Virus record (IMG/VR): IMGVR_UViG_3300017748_000009
Coordinates: 1-57,294 of that record
Reading direction: 5' to 3' (one strand)
Origin: a virus
Length of the DNA stretch: 57,294 nucleotides
Shown: piece by piece, positions 1-7,870 of the stretch
Numbering within the stretch: position 1 is the stretch's first letter
How the letters are laid out: the number at the start of each line of letters is the position of its first letter
Made by a program: the position numbers and the translations under genes
Notes under the pieces: model-generated
Databases searched by the model: none
The model's input: the letters and a program-made list of their open reading frames with translations, nothing else
What the model was told of the DNA's origin: nothing

Positions 1-123
1 ATCAAGCAAGGTGGTATACTTCCCATGCTCAAGTTTGTAATGCTCAAACTCATCCTTGTCGACTTCTATTTCTACCTCAGCAAATTTGTGGTAGACACTT
101 CGGTTTTGAATTTTTACTTTCAT
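1..123. repeat. Terminal direct repeat, left copy
   Basis: These 123 bases are identical to 57172-57294. Exact identity at both ends of a contig is what a circular or circularly permuted genome gives when an assembler stops one overlap length past closure. The sequence is ordinary coding DNA, the first 41 codons of the gene at 57001-57294, and not a special end structure. A true packaged terminal repeat cannot be excluded, but it would more often lie between genes. Confidence 0.95.
1..123 (-). CDS. Hypothetical protein, N-terminal fragment cut by the window edge
   Basis: This is the first 41 codons, starting MKVKIQNRSVYHK, of a gene that runs off the left edge. The complete copy is at 57001-57294. 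On the circular genome the two are one gene. Its ATG overlaps the TGA of the small frame at 120-266 as ATGA, so it belongs to the same minus-strand transcription unit. No recognised function. Confidence 0.85.
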   Translation of the reverse strand, partial: MKVKIQNRSVYHKFAEVEIEVDKDEFEHYKLEHGKYTTLLD

Positions 124-266
124 ATATATATATATTTAAATTGTTTTGATTTCCATTTCTTGTGCCAATATGTATACTTAGAGTCCTGAGGTCGCAAAAC
201 TATAATGCGACCCCCATTCTCTTTCTGCACACACAACACATTTGTATTCAGCTTTTTAACTATCAT
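120..266 (-). CDS. Small hypothetical protein (48 aa)
   Basis: An ATG frame fills the gap between two minus-strand genes. It starts 6 bases after the stop of the 145-aa gene and ends in an ATGA overlap with the next start at 123. The leader before its ATG is A/T-rich, as for its neighbours. The product (MIVKKLNTNVLCVQKENGG...) is basic at the C-terminus, with two tryptophans and many lysines, and ends in a short YIYI tail encoded by the TATATA leader of the next gene. That tail may be incidental. Function unknown. Support is positional: coupling at both ends and no other use for the gap. Confidence 0.5.
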   Translation of the reverse strand: MIVKKLNTNVLCVQKENGGRIIVLRPQDSKYTYWHKKWKSKQFKYIYI

Positions 267-272
267 TAAATT

Positions 273-710
273 TTATTTAAAGATTTCCATTATTTGATTT
301 AACTTATCTTCAATCTCGTTATGCTTTCGATACAAATCTTGGACATTGAAGGCACTCATACGAGCATGGTTTATAAATTCTAATAATATATATGGGTTAT
401 GTTTACCTGTACCCCCAATACTCCAAGTATCTAATTTGTGTTTGGTATATTGTAAGTCATAGGTTTTCCAATCATATATTTCAAACCTACCTTTGTTACC
501 TTCGGTATCAGTTATCTCAATGACCCAAGTCATTTGAACTTTGTCATCACCTGTCTGAATTTCAGAGGGACTGCCAAAAATAAATTTCAAATCACTATAA
601 TATATATTAGTTAAGGCATCTATTTTATGCCCACCTTGAAACGATGCATTAGCTTCGTCTTCTGTGAGAACTTTAATGGTGTTCCCTTCCCATTCTGTAA
701 TTTTTCTCAT
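273..710 (-). CDS. Hypothetical protein (145 aa)
   Basis: Unrecognised early protein. It is mixed alpha/beta in character, with a central stretch (about residues 60-85, MTWVIEITDTEGNKGRFEIY) that looks like paired beta strands, and a C-terminal helix rich in Asn, Glu and Lys. There is no signal peptide or membrane segment. The ATG at 710 overlaps the TGA of the upstream gene (ATGA), so it is translationally coupled to the 121-aa protein. A 48-aa frame follows after 6 bases. It is the third gene after the promoter at 1533-1564 and should be expressed with that early group. No function can be assigned. Confidence 0.8.
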   Translation of the reverse strand: MRKITEWEGNTIKVLTEDEANASFQGGHKIDALTNIYYSDLKFIFGSPSEIQTGDDKVQMTWVIEITDTEGNKGRFEIYDWKTYDLQYTKHKLDTWSIGGTGKHNPYILLEFINHARMSAFNVQDLYRKHNEIEDKLNQIMEIFK

Positions 711-1072
711 AACTCTGCTTCAAAATTTAATTGGGTTTCCGTTGGGTTATTATCAAACCATTCTTTGATTTGTTTACCCATACGATAATCAGCAAATTCC
801 ATCAAGTCTTCCTGACTAACACCATATTTTTTACAGATGTCATCATTATACCCAACTTCATTGTCGAACATCTTTGTTACTCTTTTTATACATCCTGTTT
901 GCTCGATGTCATTTAACTCCTTACATATATCTTCATAGCTGTCTTCTTTGTGGACAACGTAATCAATATAGTTAGACTCTTGGCTTACGGCTCCAAACCT
1001 TTCACCTGCATCGCTGTTTTGAACGGCAAACATAAATTTTCCATCTATGTCACCTGTGTAATACCTACCCAT
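707..1072 (-). CDS. Hypothetical early protein (121 aa), start set by ribozyme cleavage site
   Basis: The frame is open upstream to 1315, but that part lies inside the 116-aa gene and through a hammerhead ribozyme. The best start is the ATG at 1072. It follows the ribozyme cut site (1100/1099) by 27 bases and is preceded by the AAAACACTAC leader motif also seen at 1508 and 54656. The protein begins MGRYYTGDIDGKFMFAVQNS. From memory, this opening occurs in a family of small phage and algal-virus proteins of unknown function that start with a similar G-D-I-x-G-K-F-x-F-x-V-Q sequence. The C-terminal half is acidic and helical. It is followed by an ATGA overlap with the 145-aa gene. Confidence 0.8.
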   Translation of the reverse strand: MGRYYTGDIDGKFMFAVQNSDAGERFGAVSQESNYIDYVVHKEDSYEDICKELNDIEQTGCIKRVTKMFDNEVGYNDDICKKYGVSQEDLMEFADYRMGKQIKEWFDNNPTETQLNFEAEL

Positions 1073-1094
1073 TTTTTGTAGTGTTTTTAAGTTT

Positions 1095-1157
1095 ATACTG
1101 ACTATGTAGAAGTTGTCTACATAGTTTCGCCATAATCTCAATGGCTCATCAGAGTAT
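1095..1157 (-). ncRNA. Hammerhead ribozyme, type I (HHR1)
   Basis: Read on the minus strand. Stem I is 1157-1153 (ATACT) paired with 1099-1095 (AGTAT). The CTGATGA box is 1152-1146. Stem II is GCCAT 1145-1141 with ATGGC 1133-1129. The GAAA box is 1128-1125. Stem III is nine perfect pairs, 1124-1116 with 1110-1102, closed by a 5-nt loop. The cleavage triplet GTC ends at 1100, so the cut falls between 1100 and 1099. All invariant core bases of the hammerhead consensus are present. It starts directly after the TAA of the 116-aa gene and the cut lies 27 nt before the ATG at 1072. After cleavage the ribozyme stays on the upstream message as a hairpin-rich 3' end. Confidence 0.93.
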
Positions 1158-1508
1158 TTATTTATCTCTTGACAATTCGTAATCTGTGTCGCTATTGTCA
1201 TTGCATTCAGGACAAGGAGAGGTGTTGGCAAACTCACTTTCGTAAGATGATTGCCAAACGACCCCTTCTCCATCACACACATCACACAAATCTCTTTCCT
1301 GTTCCCACTCTTCAATCAATTCATCATCAAAGAAATAGTTAGTATAGTTGGACTCGCCATCCATTACAATATCTTTAGCGTACTCTTCCATATCGTATTT
1401 ATCCATAAATAAGTTTTCAGGGTCAATATGTTCTTCGGTGTCAAGATGTAGCCACCCTAATTCGTGACCATTTGTAATCATTATTTTATCAAAAATGTAG
1501 TGTTTCAT
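1158..1508 (-). CDS. Zinc-finger-like early protein (116 aa)
   Basis: Acidic protein with a DnaJ-type zinc-binding pattern near the C-terminus: CDVCDGEGV (about residues 76-84) and CPECN (about 98-102). These are two CxxC pairs about 20 residues apart, enough to bind one zinc ion. The N-terminal 70 residues are Asp/Glu-rich with no known motif. The ATG at 1508 is 25 nt from the -7 box of the promoter at 1533-1564 and has the AAAACACTAC leader motif, so it is first in its unit. Its TAA touches the stem I strand of ribozyme HHR1. It could bind a host protein or nucleic acid; function unknown. Confidence 0.82.
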   Translation of the reverse strand: MKHYIFDKIMITNGHELGWLHLDTEEHIDPENLFMDKYDMEEYAKDIVMDGESNYTNYFFDDELIEEWEQERDLCDVCDGEGVVWQSSYESEFANTSPCPECNDNSDTDYELSRDK

Positions 1509-1532
1509 GTCTGTAGTGTTTTAAATGTTCGA

Positions 1533-1564
1533 CAAATGTACGACAAAATTTCGACATTTCCAAA
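1533..1564 (-). promoter_or_regulatory. Early promoter of the 1158-1508 gene
   Basis: On the minus strand TTTG (1564-1561) is followed by exactly 20 bases and then TACATTTG (1540-1533). This matches the Bacteroidota pattern TTTG-N19/20-TAnnTTTG. The same -7 sequence and the same 20-base spacer occur at 4773-4804. The predicted transcript starts near 1527 and has a leader of about 20 nt with the AAAACACTAC motif. Confidence 0.72.
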
Positions 1565-1592
1565 CATTGTAGTGTTTTTTCTTATATATATA

Positions 1593-2744
1593 TTATACTT
1601 TTTCTTTTTGATTATTAAATCTATCTGCCCAACCTTCCCAATTTTCATAGCTTAACTTCTGTTGGTCGGTAACCTTCTCAAGACTAAATAAACTATCTCC
1701 AAAGTCATATACATTAAATTCAAGGCTACTTCCTGATTTGAATATTAAATCTATCTTTCTGAAGGTGTGGTTATATCTTCCATAACCTTTCTTAACAGTT
1801 GCTTTTGGATACTTCTCTTGCAACAACTCCTTAGCCTTATTAAATGCTTGTCTTTGTTTAACATAAGAGTCAAAACTCCATTGACTTTCTTTGTTGGTTT
1901 CAGCAACCTTTTTAAGCAGTCCTTTAGCTGAGTATTGTCTTTCAGTACCTACGATTGCATAGCTACAGTATTTGCCGTTTTTATAGCTTCTCCAACCATT
2001 ACTGTATGCATCTTTTGGCTCTGTCCATTCCCATTTTAAATATGGTGTTTCAACATTATAACTATTCACATATTTAAGGTATTTAACTTTAACATAAAGG
2101 TCTATGCTATGAACAGTAATAATATATTTACTATCACCTATTATAAAACTATACTCTGTTTCTCTGTCCTCTTTATCAACCTTTAGATTATCACCTTCAA
2201 CCCAACCTGCATCAATAAATGCTTGATGTTTAATTTTCTGTTCTTGGTTAATCTTTTCACCTGACTCAGCTATTTCTTTTATAGTTTTAAGATGGTTATT
2301 GGTATCCAATGGCTCTATATCCACCCAATGCTCTTTGAACTCATCAGTAACCTCTTTTTGGTCATATGGATTATTGAAGTCTATTTTGACAGTCTTCAAT
2401 GAGTCCTCAATACGTTTGATTAAATCATCTATTTGGCTCTTAGATTTCCAACCCAAAACACCTGAGCCGTTGTCATCAAAATCGCCATAGTAAAACTTGT
2501 CTGTAAACTCTTGGCTTTTTCCGTCATCAGTATCTTTAAATACTGCCACTTCAAATGAGATGTAGTACTCAGCCATATTGGGTTTGTAGTAGGACTCTTT
2601 ACCTGCCGTTGAGTACATACCCTCACCTGCTACAACCGATAGTTCATATTGACCTATTGTCAATGTACCTTGAACACCCTTCTCACCAAGAGCAGAATGG
2701 TTTTTCCAATTTATATCTTGGAAGTGGAAATTTGCTTTTTTCAT
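1593..2744 (-). CDS. Hypothetical protein (383 aa), early operon
   Basis: A large soluble protein of unknown function. The frame is open to a GTG at 2771, but those codons lie inside ribozyme HHR2. The ATG at 2744 (MKKANFHFQDINWKNH) lies 21 nt beyond the cut site and has the usual A/T-rich leader. The N-terminal 100 residues look beta-rich, with many Gly/Tyr (GTLTIGQYELSV, DKFYYGDFDDNGSG). The middle (about 130-290) is Lys/Trp/Tyr-rich, and the last 60 residues repeat an aromatic beta pattern (IDLIFKSGSSLEFNVYDFGD). No catalytic motif, membrane segment or Cys cluster is visible. It is last in the operon that starts at 4743. The promoter for the next gene group follows its stop. Confidence 0.8.
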   Translation of the reverse strand: MKKANFHFQDINWKNHSALGEKGVQGTLTIGQYELSVVAGEGMYSTAGKESYYKPNMAEYYISFEVAVFKDTDDGKSQEFTDKFYYGDFDDNGSGVLGWKSKSQIDDLIKRIEDSLKTVKIDFNNPYDQKEVTDEFKEHWVDIEPLDTNNHLKTIKEIAESGEKINQEQKIKHQAFIDAGWVEGDNLKVDKEDRETEYSFIIGDSKYIITVHSIDLYVKVKYLKYVNSYNVETPYLKWEWTEPKDAYSNGWRSYKNGKYCSYAIVGTERQYSAKGLLKKVAETNKESQWSFDSYVKQRQAFNKAKELLQEKYPKATVKKGYGRYNHTFRKIDLIFKSGSSLEFNVYDFGDSLFSLEKVTDQQKLSYENWEGWADRFNNQKEKV

Positions 2745-2758
2745 TTTATTTGATTTTA

Positions 2759-2814
2759 AGATTAAGACCACCTATGAAGGTGGTTTCGACCTATAAGGTC
2801 TCATCAGTTAATCT
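2759..2814 (-). ncRNA. Hammerhead ribozyme, type I (HHR2)
   Basis: Read on the minus strand. Stem I is 2814-2808 (AGATTAA) with 2765-2759 (TTAATCT), extendable by one G-U pair. The CTGATGA box is 2807-2801. Stem II is GACC 2800-2797 with GGTC 2791-2788, loop TTATA. The GAAA box is 2787-2784. Stem III is CCACC 2783-2779 with GGTGG 2772-2768, loop TTCATA. GTC ends at 2766, so the cut is between 2766 and 2765. The stop codon TAA of the 78-aa gene (2810-2808) is part of stem I, so coding and ribozyme share bases. The cut leaves a short unstructured leader before the ATG at 2744. Confidence 0.95.
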
Positions 2815-3044
2815 CTCGTTGGGTAAATATCTTCCCACCCATCTACTGAGTTGGGGTAAGCATATGTTCTTGGCTCTTTGTACGGCTCTTGTTCGTAAGG
2901 CTCTACCCAAAAATCTTGTTCTCCCCATCTTTCAATACATTCTGTTGCCTCTTGTTCTGCCTCTGCTGATGTTTTAAAGCCATCTTCCTGTATTACACTC
3001 AGACCAAATTCGTCTATTGTTACTACTTTGTACATTATTTTCAT
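2808..3044 (-). CDS. Hypothetical small acidic protein (78 aa)
   Basis: Unrecognised. The first 45 residues (KVVTIDEFGLSVIQEDGFKT...AEQEATECIERW) suggest a beta-beta-alpha arrangement. The C-terminus is rich in Glu, Pro and Tyr (EPYEQEPYKEPRTYAYP) and probably extended. The ATG at 3044 follows a TATATATATC leader that is repeated almost exactly before the next upstream gene. Only 17 bases separate it from that gene, and no ribozyme lies between them, so these two genes would remain on one message after processing. Its stop codon lies within ribozyme HHR2 stem I. Confidence 0.78.
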   Translation of the reverse strand: MKIMYKVVTIDEFGLSVIQEDGFKTSAEAEQEATECIERWGEQDFWVEPYEQEPYKEPRTYAYPNSVDGWEDIYPTRD

Positions 3045-3061
3045 GATATATATATATTAAA

Positions 3062-3415
3062 TTATAATTCTAATCTTCTCTCTTTGATGGCATCACAGAG
3101 TATCTCTCTATAGTCTTGGCTACCCCTTCTTATGGCTCCTACTACATCACCATCTAAGACGGCAGACATGAAGCCACCTTCACTTTTTTTCATGTGAAAT
3201 TTCATGTCCAACTCTTCGTTGTCCATCAGGTAATATGCACAACGACTGCCAATGTGAGAGTCTGTGCCTTGGTATAAAGCTACAAGCATTTGATACCCCT
3301 TAAATGAGGTAAGATATTCGTATTGGTGGTCTTTGTCCTTACGGCTCAAATAATGTGGAGTATAGCAATCGTTTAACTCTATTTTCATTTCGTCTTTAAA
3401 TGTTACTTTTTGCAT
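3062..3415 (-). CDS. Hypothetical protein (117 aa)
   Basis: Unrecognised soluble early protein with charged ends. The middle (about 35-60) contains SFKGYQMLVALYQGTDSHIG, a probable beta hairpin. A glycine-rich segment (GGFMSAVLDGDVVGAIRRGS, about 80-100) and a basic-acidic helix at the C-terminus follow. No zinc or nucleotide-binding motif. The ATG at 3415 sits 68 nt after the cut site of HHR3. Because HHR3 is type III, this message would begin with the ribozyme stems I and II as a structured 5' leader, then a run of TATATATATC just before the start codon. Confidence 0.78.
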   Translation of the reverse strand: MQKVTFKDEMKIELNDCYTPHYLSRKDKDHQYEYLTSFKGYQMLVALYQGTDSHIGSRCAYYLMDNEELDMKFHMKKSEGGFMSAVLDGDVVGAIRRGSQDYREILCDAIKERRLEL

Positions 3416-3439
3416 GATATATATATTAAATTAATATTA

Positions 3440-3488
3440 CTGTTTCGACCTTTTGGTCTCATCAGGACAGATACACATCTGCCGACAG
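3440..3488 (-). ncRNA. Hammerhead ribozyme, type III (HHR3)
   Basis: Read on the minus strand. Stem III is CTG 3488-3486 with CAG 3442-3440, plus the conserved A-U closing pair. The GTC triplet ends at 3484, so the cut lies between 3484 and 3483. Stem I is a closed hairpin, GGCAGAT 3483-3477 with ATCTGTC 3472-3466 (one G-U pair, loop GTGT). The CTGATGA box is 3465-3459. Stem II is GACC 3458-3455 with GGTC 3450-3447, loop AAAA. GAAA is 3446-3443. Stem III is short, so folding depends on stems I and II. It lies between ardC and the 117-aa gene. Cleavage leaves the ribozyme on the downstream message. Confidence 0.88.
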
Positions 3489-3489
3489 A

Positions 3490-3505
3490 GGGGTCTTTCG
3501 ACCCC
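3490..3505 (-). other. GAAA-tetraloop hairpin just 5' of ribozyme HHR3
   Basis: On the minus strand GGGGTC, GAAA loop, GACCCC form six perfect pairs. It ends about 5 nt before the HHR3 cleavage site and about 10 nt after the ardC stop codon. No run of T follows, so it is not a typical intrinsic terminator. After ribozyme cleavage it would sit at the new 3' end of the ardC message, where a stable hairpin could block exonucleases. This role is inferred. Confidence 0.75.
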
Positions 3506-3514
3506 CATTTGGAC

Positions 3515-4462
3515 TTACTCTCCAAGGATATAATCTACTGCCTTAGCTGACTTTGTCAGGGCTGATACTACTGCTTTCGCATCCTCTTTTTCAACTGCTT
3601 TCACCCATCCGTTGATATAGGCTTGACTGTTGCTTTCGTCATCTCCACAGTCTGTGCAGATACCTGCTACACCTGATAACACCATCGCACCACTCTCAGC
3701 AATTAACTCCTCAAATGCGTAATCTGCTCTGCTCTTGGTTAACATCTTTGCTGTTGTTACACCATCTCTGTTGAGCCTACTTTCGTGACCTGTGCTGTGT
3801 ACCATCTCATGAAATAATGTTTTATAGAAGTTATCAGAGTTGACAAATTGGCTCATTAACGGCATTACTATTATGTCTTTTAATGGTGAGTAACAGGCTC
3901 TGTCTCCTTCGACTTCTCTAATATCTAACTTAGGGTTGTCCTTCTTATAAACAGATACTATATTTTCTGCTGACTCGATAGGTTGAACATCTTTGTTTGT
4001 CTCTTCGTGTGGTCTCTTAGGAGTTAAACCTGTGCATTGTGCTATGTTCCATACTCTGTAGAAACGAAGATTAAAGTTAGTAAAGATGTCACTTTCGCTA
4101 CAATTTTCTGCTTTCATACATTCTCTTTTAGTCTTGTACCATTTCCCTGAGCCACCCATCGCTGTATAACTGATTAGCCAAAAATATACATCTGTTCCAC
4201 TTTCGCCCTTCTTAACTTTGCCACCTGAGGCTCCAACACTCTTGAAGGTTGACCACTCGTTGTACTCATATCCTTTGTCTGTCATCTCAGCATTTAAGAT
4301 AAAATTGTTAAACCCTTTGTAGGCTCTTCCTGAGGCATTGTTGATAGGAAAATTTAACCCTGCTTTCCATGGTTTAAACCATTGTAAGCCGTCTTTCTTT
4401 AGTCCATCGAGAAGAGTCTGCTTTACTTTCTCGGTTACATCCATTTTGATTTTCTGTGTCAT
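3515..4462 (-). CDS. ardC: ArdC-like antirestriction protein / zincin
   Basis: 315 aa with the two-domain layout of the ArdC family: an N-terminal ssDNA-binding region (about 1-140, including NASGRAYKGFNN and a WSTFKSVGASGGKVKKGE stretch) and a C-terminal zinc metallopeptidase. The zinc site HEMVH is at 218-222, followed by H226 (HSTGHESRL) and a later FEELIAESGA helix that should supply the third ligand. ArdC proteins protect incoming DNA from restriction and may be delivered or made early. The gene lies between ribozymes HHR4 and HHR3, so it would be released as a single-cistron message. The ATG at 4462 follows a leader with AAAACACACACA, similar to the motif at other early genes. Confidence 0.88.
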   Translation of the reverse strand: MTQKIKMDVTEKVKQTLLDGLKKDGLQWFKPWKAGLNFPINNASGRAYKGFNNFILNAEMTDKGYEYNEWSTFKSVGASGGKVKKGESGTDVYFWLISYTAMGGSGKWYKTKRECMKAENCSESDIFTNFNLRFYRVWNIAQCTGLTPKRPHEETNKDVQPIESAENIVSVYKKDNPKLDIREVEGDRACYSPLKDIIVMPLMSQFVNSDNFYKTLFHEMVHSTGHESRLNRDGVTTAKMLTKSRADYAFEELIAESGAMVLSGVAGICTDCGDDESNSQAYINGWVKAVEKEDAKAVVSALTKSAKAVDYILGE

Positions 4463-4492
4463 TGTGTGTGTTTTAAATTAATATTTATTATT

Positions 4493-4544
4493 CCTGTTTC
4501 GCCTTCTTTGGCTCATCAGCACAGGGTTATCACCTGTGGACAGG
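4493..4544 (-). ncRNA. Hammerhead ribozyme, type III (HHR4)
   Basis: Read on the minus strand. Stem III is CCTG 4544-4541 with CAGG 4496-4493 plus the A-U pair. GTC ends at 4539, so the cut lies between 4539 and 4538. Stem I is a closed hairpin, CACAGG 4538-4533 with CCTGTG 4525-4520 (7-nt loop). The CTGATGA box is 4519-4513. Stem II is GCC 4512-4510 with GGC 4503-4501. GAAA is 4500-4497. It lies between the 58-aa gene and ardC, closest of the four to the operon promoter. The downstream ardC message would start with the ribozyme hairpins. Confidence 0.9.
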
Positions 4545-4560
4545 GGGACATTTCTGCCCC
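4544..4560 (-). other. GAAA-tetraloop hairpin just 5' of ribozyme HHR4
   Basis: On the minus strand GGGGCA, GAAA loop, TG(T)CCCC form six pairs with one bulged T. It lies between the stop codon of the 58-aa gene and the HHR4 cut site and shares one base with stem III of the ribozyme. Position and loop match the hairpin before HHR3. It would cap the 3' end of the first cistron after cleavage. Confidence 0.65.
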
Positions 4561-4566
4561 TATCTG

Positions 4567-4743
4567 CTACCCCTCGAAGCCGTATAAATCGCCAAGGGTT
4601 TGGAAGATTTCATCTCTTCCGTTGTCGTATTCGATAGCTGATATAAAGCCTGATGCATAATCTCTCTCGAGTCTGTCCTCAAGAAAAAATACCTGTTGTG
4701 CCATCTCTGTTGTGTTACCTGTTGTACTGATTGAATGTGTCAT
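4567..4743 (-). CDS. Small hypothetical protein (58 aa), first gene of the early operon
   Basis: ATG at 4743, TAG at 4567. The product starts MTHSISTTGNTTEMAQQVFF. The first dozen residues are Thr/Ser-rich, followed by an amphipathic helix with many Glu/Asp/Arg (LEDRLERDYASGFISAIE) and an acidic end. No known family. It is the first cistron after the promoter at 4773-4804 and is followed at once by a hairpin and ribozyme HHR4. Its position suggests a very early product or a small regulator. The coding call rests on the promoter, the start and the clean fit to the next element. Confidence 0.68.
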   Translation of the reverse strand: MTHSISTTGNTTEMAQQVFFLEDRLERDYASGFISAIEYDNGRDEIFQTLGDLYGFEG

Positions 4744-4772
4744 GTTTGTTGATTTAATTATTAATATTTGTT

Positions 4773-4804
4773 CAAATGTAGTTTAAATATATATACACTC
4801 CAAA
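4773..4804 (-). promoter_or_regulatory. Main early promoter, minus strand
   Basis: TTTG (4804-4801), exactly 20 bases, then TACATTTG (4780-4773) on the minus strand, 30 nt before the first ATG at 4743. This is the Bacteroidota promoter pattern. The -7 box and spacer are the same as at 1533-1564. It should drive the ribozyme-containing operon. Confidence 0.75.
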
Positions 4805-5206
4805 CTTTTTTGCAACTAATTAATTATATTGTCTGTAACTTATTGTATGTCAGCTACTTACAGATGTTAAAAATACTGTCTTTTGTTTACTTAAATTTAG
4901 GTCTACTCTGATGGTATCGAGGGAAGGCTGTTCTCTATTCCCTTTGTTGGTATCACGTCCCACCAAGGAAGGGACACCCTGAAGAGGGGCAACACCTTAA
5001 AAAAGTTTACATGATATATATATCTAAGGGGTCAAGGCTTACAGGTTGACAAGGTCATTAGTCAATAGATAAAACGCCAAAAAATTAGGAATGCAAATTT
5101 TAAAAACAGACCCCCCCCTACGAAAAAAAAGTTGATTTCCCTGACACAGATTTTGCGTGTAGCCATAATATAACCCAATTGCTCTAAGTGTCTAAATAAA
5201 AAATCT
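4805..5206. other. Divergent intergenic control region with candidate structured RNA
   Basis: No convincing gene in about 400 bases between the early minus operon and the first plus-strand gene. The centre is GC-richer than its surroundings. On the plus strand 4946-4949 (GTTG) pairs with 4990-4993 (CAAC) and encloses two hairpins: GTCCC 4957-4961 with GGGAC 4971-4975, and CCCT 4977-4980 with AGGG 4985-4988. A further hairpin, GGGAA 4921-4925 with TTCCC 4938-4942, lies just before. A run of eight C is near 5110-5118. These could be a non-coding RNA, an operator or a replication origin; I cannot decide. Confidence 0.5.
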
Positions 5207-5214
5207 TATCTTTG
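5207..5214 (+). promoter_or_regulatory. Promoter -7 box of the 66-aa gene
   Basis: TATCTTTG fits TAnnTTTG and lies 21 bases before the ATG at 5236. A TTG at 5179-5181 is a possible upstream box, but the 25-base spacer is longer than usual. The same TATCTTTGT sequence recurs before the plus-strand genes at 13436, 25480, 26098 and 35202. Confidence 0.6.
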
Positions 5215-5235
5215 TAAAAGACAAAAAAAATTATT

Positions 5236-5436
5236 ATGCATTTTAAAATAAAACCCTCAATGATGGGATACGATGTAAAGGATGGTAGGTTAATAAATAA
5301 CGCACCGCCTTTAACTACAGGTATTGACAGAGCAGTAATGTTAAAGAACTCTTTAAAGAGAGCAAAGAAAGTTCAGATGATAGCTGAAGGAAATGAATTA
5401 GCAAATGCTAACATAAACTTATTTAAGAAACTATAA
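5236..5436 (+). CDS. Small hypothetical protein (66 aa), monocistronic
   Basis: Basic protein (MHFKIKPSMMGYDVKDG...) with a helical, Lys/Asn-rich C-terminal half (LKNSLKRAKKVQMIAEGNEL). No known motif or membrane segment. It has its own promoter box at 5207-5214 and its own intrinsic terminator at 5500-5530, so it is expressed alone, next to the divergent control region. Such isolated small genes beside a control region often encode regulators or host-takeover proteins, but nothing in the sequence identifies one here. Confidence 0.7.
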   Translation: MHFKIKPSMMGYDVKDGRLINNAPPLTTGIDRAVMLKNSLKRAKKVQMIAEGNELANANINLFKKL

Positions 5437-5499
5437 TTATAGTAGTTTGTTTGTAATGGAGTAAGTTGTTTTTAGTAGTGTTTTAACAACTTAATAATT

Positions 5500-5531
5500 A
5501 AGGGACCCTCCTCATAAGGTCCCTTTTCCTT
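5500..5531 (+). terminator. Intrinsic terminator after the 66-aa gene
   Basis: AAGGGACC (5500-5507) pairs with GGTCCCTT (5518-5525) around a 10-base loop, followed by the pyrimidine run TTCCTTTT. It ends the transcript of 5236-5436. Between the gene and the hairpin lies an imperfect inverted repeat, GTTGTT...AACAAC (5465-5490), that holds GTAGTGTTTT. On the other strand this is the leader motif found before several minus-strand genes. Confidence 0.8.
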
Positions 5532-5729
5532 TTATATAATGTTAAGTTTTATATAGTCTGTGTTGACTTTATGTTGACTTTGTGTTAACTTTAAAATACC
5601 TAACTAACTGATAATCAATTTAATAACTATAATTATGTTGAGTTGACGACTTAAGAGGGGTCATAGACGGAAAAAAAATAATTACGATAAAGAAAAGAGA
5701 GAGAGAGTATAGCGAAAGAAATTTAACAC

Positions 5730-5758
5730 TTGACACTTAATATAATTTAGTATATTTG
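5730..5758 (+). promoter_or_regulatory. Promoter of the groEL unit
   Basis: TTG (5730-5732), 18 bases, TATATTTG (5751-5758), 22 bases before the ATG of groEL. It fits the Bacteroidota promoter pattern. The stretch from 5532 to 5729 holds no gene that I can support. Confidence 0.68.
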
Positions 5759-5780
5759 CTTTAAATTAAATCTAATACAT

Positions 5781-7400
5781 ATGAATCCAAAAGAACTGCA
5801 CTTTGATAGTGTCGGGCGAAAGAAGCTACTTAGTGGAATAACCCAAATAGCTAAAGCTGTTAAATCTACATTAGGACCCCAAGGGAACACAGTCTTAATA
5901 GAATCACAAGAACACATAGGAGGAATTACTGTGACGAAAGATGGAGTTACAGTAGCTAAATCAATTAATCTATTAGACCCTGTAGAAAACCTAGCGGTTA
6001 GAATAATGAAGGAAGCAGCAGATAAGACTGCAACCTCAGCCGGTGATGGAACAACTACAGCCATTGTATTAACTGAAAGTTTAGTATCTAAAGGTTTAGA
6101 GCTTATAGATGAAAAAGTTAATAGAACAGAAGTATTAAAGTTATTACAAGCTGAGTCTAATACTATTGTTGGTAAATTAAAAAAGAAATCAAAAAAAATA
6201 TCCGGTAAAAAACTAAAAGACGTTGCTGTTATTTCAGCAAACAATGATGAGTTTATTGGAGACTTAATATCTAAAGTATATAATAGCGTTGGTAAAGATG
6301 GTATTGTTACAGTTGAAAAGTCAAATAATCATGAGACATATTTTGAAACGACTAAAGGTATTAAAATTGACAGGGGATATAGTTCTCCACTATTTATTAA
6401 TGACCATAAACACGATGAGTGTATATATGAAAATATAAAAGTTTTAGTAGCTGATGCCGAGATAAGTAATATACTTCAAATAGAAAATGTATTAAAACAA
6501 GTAATTAATAATAAAGACAAGTTACTTATTATTGCTCCTTGCTCTGCAGGATTTACAAACACCATGGCAGCAAATGTAATGAAGAACGGATTAAAGTTAG
6601 TTAGTATACAACCACCCGACTTTGGATACAGACAACACGAGCTTATGAATGACATAGCTCTTGCTGTTGGCGCAACATACTTTAGCGAAAAGACAGGTGA
6701 CGATTTAAGTCTCATCGGTTATGACGATTTGGGTCATTGTTCCAAGGTGATAGTTGGGCGTGATTCAACAGTCGTCATAAAAGATGAGCAAGAAAACAGC
6801 GACTTAATAAAAGAAAGAGTTAAGGAATTATGGGGTGCCCATGATATAAGTAAAAGAAAACAAGACAAATCTTTTATTGAGAAACGTATTGCATCACTTA
6901 CAGGTGGTATTGGTGTTATGTATGTTGGTGGAAACACAGACTTAGAGCAAAAAGAATTATACGATAGGGTTGATGATGCTGTATGTGCAGTAAAGTCTGC
7001 GCTAGAAGAAGGAATACTACCCGGTGGTGGAGTGAGCTTATATAGAGAAGGACTATATTATGAAAACATAAATCCCTTTATTGGTGTTGATGAGCCTAAA
7101 GAATCACACGATTATCACACAAAAAAAATTGCTTACGCAATTTTAAGCTATGCCCTTAAGTCTCCGCTACTACAAATACTTTCTAATGCAGGTATGGATA
7201 ATGATATGTATTCAATTACAGACAATCCTGACGATGGGTATGATGTAAAGAATGAGAAGTGGGGTAATATGATGTCAATGGGAATTATAGACCCAATGAA
7301 AGTTACAAGGTCTGCTTTACAAAATGCAATAAGTGTAGCGATTACATTACTATCTACAAATGCAATAGTAACCATGATAAGAAAAAAGAATGAATCATGA
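5781..7400 (+). CDS. groEL: Chaperonin GroEL (phage-encoded)
   Basis: 539 aa, full chaperonin length. The equatorial ATP-binding motif GDGTTT is at 88-93, preceded by TKDGVTVAK (52-60). The ATPase aspartate in the DDAV...EEGILPGGG segment near 398-416 is present. The N-terminus (GRKKLLSGITQIAKAVKSTLGP) is typical. The apical domain is divergent and the Gly/Met-rich C-terminal tail of bacterial GroEL is absent; the protein ends MIRKKNES. GroEL folds proteins in an ATP-driven double ring with GroES, and phage copies are thought to fold virion proteins. It has its own promoter and is followed by an ATGA-overlapping membrane protein and a GroES gene, so the pair is probably co-expressed. Confidence 0.97.
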   Translation: MNPKELHFDSVGRKKLLSGITQIAKAVKSTLGPQGNTVLIESQEHIGGITVTKDGVTVAKSINLLDPVENLAVRIMKEAADKTATSAGDGTTTAIVLTESLVSKGLELIDEKVNRTEVLKLLQAESNTIVGKLKKKSKKISGKKLKDVAVISANNDEFIGDLISKVYNSVGKDGIVTVEKSNNHETYFETTKGIKIDRGYSSPLFINDHKHDECIYENIKVLVADAEISNILQIENVLKQVINNKDKLLIIAPCSAGFTNTMAANVMKNGLKLVSIQPPDFGYRQHELMNDIALAVGATYFSEKTGDDLSLIGYDDLGHCSKVIVGRDSTVVIKDEQENSDLIKERVKELWGAHDISKRKQDKSFIEKRIASLTGGIGVMYVGGNTDLEQKELYDRVDDAVCAVKSALEEGILPGGGVSLYREGLYYENINPFIGVDEPKESHDYHTKKIAYAILSYALKSPLLQILSNAGMDNDMYSITDNPDDGYDVKNEKWGNMMSMGIIDPMKVTRSALQNAISVAITLLSTNAIVTMIRKKNES

Positions 7401-7558
7401 GAAAATTAGCTTTAATAGGAGGACTTAGTTTAATGACTGCCGGAAGTAGTTACATGATTTGGCATCCTCATGCACCTCAATTTGATTTAAACCCAAATAC
7501 TTTAGCGATAGCCACAGGAGGATTTTTTGTAGCAGTAGGAATTACTTATAAATTTTAA
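7397..7558 (+). CDS. Small membrane protein between groEL and groES (53 aa)
   Basis: The ATG overlaps the groEL stop (ATGA) and its TAA is followed directly by the next ATG, so it is tightly coupled on both sides. Two hydrophobic segments, about 4-20 (LALIGGLSLMTAGSSYM) and 36-51 (TLAIATGGFFVAVGITY), are separated by a polar loop with HPHAPQFDLNPN. It looks like a two-helix membrane protein. Function unknown. Location between chaperonin subunits is unusual and may only reflect operon packing. Confidence 0.72.
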   Translation: MRKLALIGGLSLMTAGSSYMIWHPHAPQFDLNPNTLAIATGGFFVAVGITYKF

Positions 7559-7870
7559 ATGATAAAAAAAGAATGGCAATGGATGTCAGACTTTATAATT
7601 AAAAAAAAAATAATGAAGCCAATAGCTAGATATATTTTAATTGAGCCAATAGAAGAAGAGATAAAAACTGAATCAGGTATTTTATTAAGTGGTGATGAAG
7701 CTCATAAAAGAAGATACCAAAAAGGTAAGGTACACTCTATAGGTCATCATGTTGAATCAATTAATGCTGATGATATAATTTATTATGACCACCGAAGTGC
7801 TCACACCTTACTGATGGAAGGAAGTAAAATTACAGTCATTCAAGAGAAGGACGTAGTAATTGTTTTATAA
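7559..7870 (+). CDS. groES: Co-chaperonin GroES-like
   Basis: The core begins at residue 19 (MKPIARYILIEPIEEE), the usual first strand of GroES. Then come a mobile-loop sequence (KTESGILLSGDEAHKRRYQKGKV) with the hydrophobic GILL tripeptide that contacts GroEL, and the second half of the barrel (SINADDIIYYDHRSA...). The frame starts at 7559, directly after the previous stop. An internal ATG at 7613 would give a standard-length 85-aa GroES, and I think either start is possible. It forms a seven-fold lid on GroEL. The 3' end overlaps the convergent gene at 7836 by 35 bases. Confidence 0.88.
   Translation: MIKKEWQWMSDFIIKKKIMKPIARYILIEPIEEEIKTESGILLSGDEAHKRRYQKGKVHSIGHHVESINADDIIYYDHRSAHTLLMEGSKITVIQEKDVVIVL

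Follow-up and report, generated by a model that had tools for sequence, protein, structure and literature searches.

Results

The ribozyme operon of the window

The stretch of DNA analysed here, referred to as the window, is the complete IMG/VR virus record IMGVR_UViG_3300017748_000009 of 57,294 bases, a podovirus record of the Flavobacteriia type. Positions 1-4743 of the minus strand form an operon in which small genes surround ardC, an antirestriction gene of the ArdC type. A core search of the window found four hammerhead ribozymes (HHRs), two of type III and two of type I, all of which are intergenic and lie on the minus strand. On both sides, ardC is flanked by a unit composed of a hairpin and a type III HHR. 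The features are listed below in the order of the minus strand.

4544..4560, minus strand: hairpin GGGGCA-GAAA-UGUCCCC; -8.3 kcal/mol, one bulge or G-U pair; 6 nucleotides (nt) past the stop codon of a 58-aa open reading frame (ORF, 4743-4567) and 5-6 nt from the predicted cut between 4539 and 4538

4493..4544, minus strand: type III HHR; stem III CCUGU/ACAGG, stem I CACAGG..CCUGUG, stem II GCC..GGC; predicted cut between 4539 and 4538

3515..4462, minus strand: gene of the ArdC-type antirestriction protein; domain matches ArdcN (2.1e-20) and MPTase-PolyVal (7.7e-27)

3489..3506, minus strand: hairpin GGGGGUC-GAAA-GACCCCU (core 3505-3490); -12.8 kcal/mol; 8 nt past the ardC stop codon and 5 nt (CUGUC) from the cut between 3484 and 3483

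3440..3488, minus strand: type III HHR; stem III CUGU/ACAG, stem I GGCAGAU-GUGU-AUCUGUC, stem II GACC-AAAA-GGUC; predicted cut between 3484 and 3483

2760..2813, minus strand: type I HHR; its own stem III hairpin (2784-2767) stops 1 base short of the predicted cut between 2766 and 2765

1095..1157, minus strand: type I HHR; its own stem III hairpin stops 1 base short of the predicted cut between 1100 and 1099; a homologue is present in the related contig L121

Every invariant core nucleotide (CUGAUGA, GAAA, A15.1-U16.1, C17) is present in both type III HHRs. Their topology is that of type III, with stems I and II closed by loops and stem III open. The closest known system is the type III HHR of the satellite tobacco ringspot virus type (Rfam RF00008), which they match in the core nucleotides, the stem topology and the GUC cleavage triplet, and the loops of stems I and II are similar. 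They differ from it in their intergenic position in the operon of a DNA phage, in the separate upstream hairpin and in a score below the gathering score. The type I HHRs need no extra hairpin because the hairpin of their stem III already reaches to one base from the cut.

The two hairpins upstream of the type III HHRs are rare features. Only 0.22% of the minus-strand positions of the window have a hairpin of -8.3 kcal/mol or better ending there or one base earlier, and 0.03% have one of -12.8 kcal/mol or better by the same end criterion. A preliminary description of this DNA had placed hairpins with GAAA loops at 3490-3505 and 4544-4560, about 5 bases from the type III cuts and without a run of T (T-run). 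This was confirmed, with distances of 5 and 5-6 nt and no T-run after either hairpin. Its statement that all four predicted 3' ends adjoin a hairpin also holds, as the stem III of type I ends one base from the cut. A terminator search of window positions 1-6000 found neither of the type III-linked hairpins, and its sole match was the type I stem III at 2784-2767. The reading of these hairpins as terminators was dropped, because the T-run is missing and a ribozyme lies downstream. Terminator-like hairpins with a T-run were found elsewhere in the same phage (24657+, 26062+ and 53474-). A hairpin at 188-214 on the minus strand was tried as a hairpin-only junction of the window and was also dropped, as it sits within a possible 48-aa ORF.

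Conservation of the unit in related phages

The relatives L121, L122/L129 and L123 share 57-93% ArdC identity with the window. At their ardC-flanking junctions, the type III HHR and the hairpin are both present wherever the contig covers the junction. The preliminary description had named the loss of the hairpin from relatives keeping the ribozyme as the finding that would speak against the pairing; these relatives retain both alike. The arms of the hairpins are changed yet re-paired, and the GAAA loop is replaced by GCAA or UUCG. The counterpart of the hairpin at 4560-4544 reads GGGGGAC-UUCG-GUUCCCCC in L122, L123 and L129. That of the hairpin at 3506-3489 reads GGGGGGUC-GAAA-GACCUCCC in L121 and GGGGGUC-GCAA-GACCCCC in L122. 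Therefore, the GAAA loop to which attention had been drawn is incidental and not conserved; GCAA, UUCG, UCAA and other loops occur in relatives and other phages. Stems I and II of the type III HHRs in L121, L122, L123 and L129 are likewise changed and still paired. A type I HHR was found in L121 (about 1517-1573) at the junction matching window 2760-2813, and its stem III is altered and, as judged by eye, still paired.

The ardC junction is occupied by a type I HHR without an additional hairpin in L132 and L135. Neither the hairpin-only arrangement nor a type I HHR was found at this junction in L126, L130, L133 and L134. In L126 (4850-6100), both ardC-flanking junctions have a similar structured stretch, CTGCC...GGTGGTAGAAACC and CCGCC...GGTGGTAAAAACC, which is possibly another intercistronic RNA; a comparison of these structures with Rfam gave no match. 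No copy of the exact type III unit was found in cultured phages by blastn against the phage collection. In the cultured Cellulophaga phage phi18:3, an unannotated type I HHR (KC821620 21929-21952, minus strand) lies between gp049 and gp050, in a run of small genes that includes ardA.

Association of the hairpin with HHR types

At least 120 loci were obtained from 2.9 million viral contigs with a search pattern that was blind to upstream hairpins. The HHR detectors required fixed core letters and stems of a minimum length (4 base pairs (bp) for stems I and III of types I and III). Redundant entries were thinned out on the basis of sequence similarity. The viral and bacterial samples of each type are among the matches listed. 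The hairpin rule was derived and tested on samples of one analysis, and only the outcome for type II was predicted before the scan. An abutting hairpin of -6 kcal/mol or better was present in 83% of 95 non-redundant viral type III HHRs versus 31% of dinucleotide shuffles, with a median of -12.9 versus -3.9 kcal/mol. The type III HHRs of bacterial contigs (n=93), many of which are metagenome-assembled genomes (MAGs) of Patescibacteria, gave 67% versus 22%. The corresponding values were 12% versus 16% for type I HHRs from the type III viral loci (n=24), 30% versus 25% for type I HHRs from their own scan (n=167), and 33% versus 34% for type II HHRs (n=126). The contrast of type III with the other types persists inside GC bins. 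The own stem III hairpins of the other types are stable, with medians of -8.7 (type I) and -10.8 kcal/mol (type II). Downstream of type III HHRs, hairpins are few (11%). As a control, junctions of the same loci were compared, and a hairpin of -8 kcal/mol or better followed the stop codon at 86% of type III junctions against 30% of the others (Mann-Whitney p=4e-7). The extra hairpin exceeds chance only with type III, the one layout leaving no hairpin at the new 3' end, and types I and II occur in similar gene junctions.

Many Patescibacteria (candidate phyla radiation, CPR) MAG contigs among L259-L338, for example L320, L299, L323 and L293, carry intergenic type III HHRs resembling those of satellite viruses, up to 4 per contig and often with an upstream hairpin. 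In L038, L067, L068 and L113, a recurrent CTGAGCATGA....AAACTGCTC replaces the usual hairpin upstream of the type III HHRs.

Geometry of the units

In viral type III units, the stop codon is followed after a median of 7 nt by the hairpin and after a further 5-7 nt by the cut. Then come the ribozyme body and, about 24 nt beyond it, the ATG. The distance from hairpin to cut is 5-7 nt in 74 of 88 units, and the length of stem III has little effect on it. Type I units have about 5 nt between stop codon and core, and their ATG follows stem I after about 22 nt. It is reported that RNase II stalls 5-7 nt ahead of a duplex and that RNase R requires an overhang of at least 5 nt (PMC10240344). These overhang lengths fit the tail lengths predicted after type III cleavage.

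Discussion

Sequence anatomy, conservation, statistical association, specificity for one topology and spacing were observed for the pair of hairpin and type III HHR. We propose, with a probability of about 0.7, that the pair constitutes a module for intercistronic mRNA processing and capping of 3' ends. The minus-strand operon would be transcribed as a long mRNA, and the HHRs would cut it between the genes. Each cut would give an upstream message with a 2',3'-cyclic phosphate at its 3' end and a downstream message starting with a 5'-OH. After cleavage by type I or II, the own stem III hairpin would remain at the new 3' end. After type III cleavage, nothing but an open strand of some 5 nt would remain there, and therefore a separate hairpin would follow the stop codon and precede the ribozyme. 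Once the RNA is cut, this hairpin would lie 5-7 nt from the 3' end and block 3'-5' exonucleases. We infer both the cleavage in vivo and the protection from exonucleases. The series of stop codon, hairpin, cut, ribozyme body and next start codon would thus be a unit by which the polycistronic transcript is divided into messages whose 3' ends are capped.

The preliminary description had seen here a 3'-end unit replacing intrinsic terminators. Its pairing of ribozyme with hairpin and its proposal that 3' ends are formed are kept. The replacement of terminators is too strong a statement, since transcription would not be ended and the phage has its T-run hairpins elsewhere. The hairpin precedes the ribozyme and the polymerase must read through it, so the unit would process the transcript rather than end transcription. 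In a wider sense, it is reasonably probable that the composite module is widespread in phages, perhaps also in Patescibacteria, and forms mRNA 3' ends by RNA catalysis. One topological rule would then cover all HHR types there, namely that the new 3' end carries a hairpin. In types I and II this would be stem III, and in type III an added hairpin.

Several points weigh against the proposed module. The window HHRs were unmatched in a Rfam search at the gathering score, and the thresholds had to be relaxed. The scores with Hammerhead_3 (RF00008) were 39.5 bits (3440..3488) and 24.7 bits against a gathering score of 48.5 bits, which is a library cut-off and not a structural feature; the better-scoring one has E = 3.8e-06 in the 5.3-kb search. 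About 17% of viral type III HHRs have no clear hairpin. A second smaller sample (stem III CGGU, GC-rich, n=19) gave 68% versus 41% at -8 kcal/mol, which is the same direction with a weaker excess. Hairpin sequences are shared among related phages, so the counts are not fully independent. RNase R is able to degrade through hairpins, as is PNPase with a helicase. Finally, hairpins occur without ribozymes. At the ardC junction of the distant relatives L124, L125, L127, L128 and L131, a hairpin follows the stop codon, and neither an HHR nor a T-run is present. In the uncultured podovirus MW202828 (L416 13898-19008), the operon corresponding to the ribozyme operon of the window has a GTGTCGTTAACGACAC hairpin directly after at least six stop codons, with neither ribozyme nor T-run; this hairpin is also a perfect DNA palindrome. 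Such hairpins can be under selection for a role that does not need the cut. Since the distant relatives carry it alone, the hairpin is, judged by its distribution, an intercistronic element in its own right rather than strictly one half of a pair. It is common to ribozyme and non-ribozyme junctions, absent where a type I HHR supplies the hairpin, and probably functions on its own.

The main alternative is that the hairpin aids the ribozyme. It would insulate the short stem III from the upstream mRNA or stack on it coaxially, so that the type III fold forms efficiently. In its favour, the hairpins lie 0-2 nt from stem III, and the natural upstream sequence lowers the cost of forming the ribozyme stems by 0.5-0.6 kcal/mol relative to a shuffled one or none (p=2e-4 and 0.005). 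However, this gain is small, and hairpin-less type III HHRs show an equal drop relative to shuffles. Viral type III HHRs with a stem III of at least 7 bp are more often hairpin-less (6/16 versus 12/90, p=0.03), but this length effect is absent in the bacterial set. Types I and II are without an upstream hairpin although the stop codon and the ribosome are equally close or closer, the type I stop codon being about 5 nt from the core. In many cases the last pair of the hairpin overlaps the outer pair of stem III, so the two compete. As for coaxial stacking, the gap between hairpin and stem III is more variable than the distance from hairpin to cut. We regard a folding aid as rather unlikely. It is also unlikely that the hairpins are ordinary intercistronic ones (partial terminators, pause sites or stabilisers resembling repetitive extragenic palindromic (REP) elements) which are older than the ribozymes and beside which type III HHRs were merely inserted. 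The hairpin-only ardC junctions and the repeated MW202828 hairpin favour this explanation, as does a hairpin of -8 kcal/mol or better at 30% of the non-HHR junctions of the same loci. On the other hand, the T-run is missing, termination at these hairpins would stop the downstream ribozyme from being made, and co-location leaves both the tight 5-7 nt spacing and the hairpin-less types I and II unexplained. Because hairpin-only junctions exist, insertion of HHRs beside pre-existing hairpins may be part of the history.

That the hairpin binds a phage or host protein which regulates translation, decay or cleavage is highly improbable. Many phages do share a recurrent core GTGTC-TTCAAA-GACAC upstream of their HHRs, and hairpin-only junctions have a related recurrent one, GTGTC-GTTAAC-GACAC. 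Nevertheless, arms and loops vary freely across phages while pairing and position are retained, which argues against a single sequence-specific reader.

The proposed processing module resembles known systems in part. The early mRNA of phage T7 is polycistronic, RNase III cuts it between genes, and the messages end in hairpins. There the cut is made at the hairpin by a host protein, whereas in the window it would be made by an RNA enzyme, directly downstream of the hairpin. RiboJ and ribozyme-separated synthetic operons combine a ribozyme with a hairpin in an expression unit. The hairpin of RiboJ is downstream and serves the 5' end; that of the window is upstream and would serve the 3' end. An intrinsic (Rho-independent) terminator likewise has a stable GC-rich hairpin just past the stop codon, near the mRNA 3' end. 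The window hairpins differ from it in having no T-run, and there the 3' end would arise by cleavage while transcription continues. A precedent in gene context comes from prophages, in which clustered HHRs flank single phage genes including the antirestriction gene ardA; these HHRs were proposed to yield single-gene mRNAs by processing, and some were shown to cleave (Perreault et al. 2011, PMC3088659). The window is similar in its multiple HHRs flanking single genes, an antirestriction gene among them. Searching the text of that paper gave no mention of terminators, of an upstream hairpin or of a rule linking hairpins to ribozyme type. No published report of the type III hairpin-ribozyme pairing was found in literature of incomplete coverage, with most subscription papers outside it. 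Therefore, the novelty of the type III hairpin rule is provisional, and the HHRs flanking prophage genes and the single-gene mRNA proposal were already known. A rule that sorts the three HHR layouts by the hairpin at the new 3' end would give them one shared job, which is to provide stable message ends in long transcripts. The hairpin with a type III HHR would also be a natural design for splitting synthetic operons.

Host and other observations in the window

The closest match of the window portal protein in the phage collection is that of MW202828, with 76% identity. The portal proteins of Flavobacterium and Maribacter phages match that of the window at 46-49% identity, and Cellulophaga and Tenacibaculum phages also match. 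Because of these portal matches, the host of the window phage is most likely a flavobacterium. No relatives were obtained with the 383-aa protein of the window as the query. A motif ATGTCGAA..TTTTGTCGTACA..TTGTCGAACAT is conserved between the genes of the 383-aa and 116-aa proteins (window 1509-1592, minus strand, and L121 2760-2810) and is possibly a regulator site. Upstream of the ribozyme operon, window 4900-5000 has a strong structure, AAGGTGTTGCCCCTCTTCAGGGTGTCCC on the minus strand, with no match in Rfam. At 5781-7870 on the plus strand, the phage carries a GroEL-like gene that matches the groEL of MW202828 at the DNA level, and it is probably followed by a GroES-like gene.
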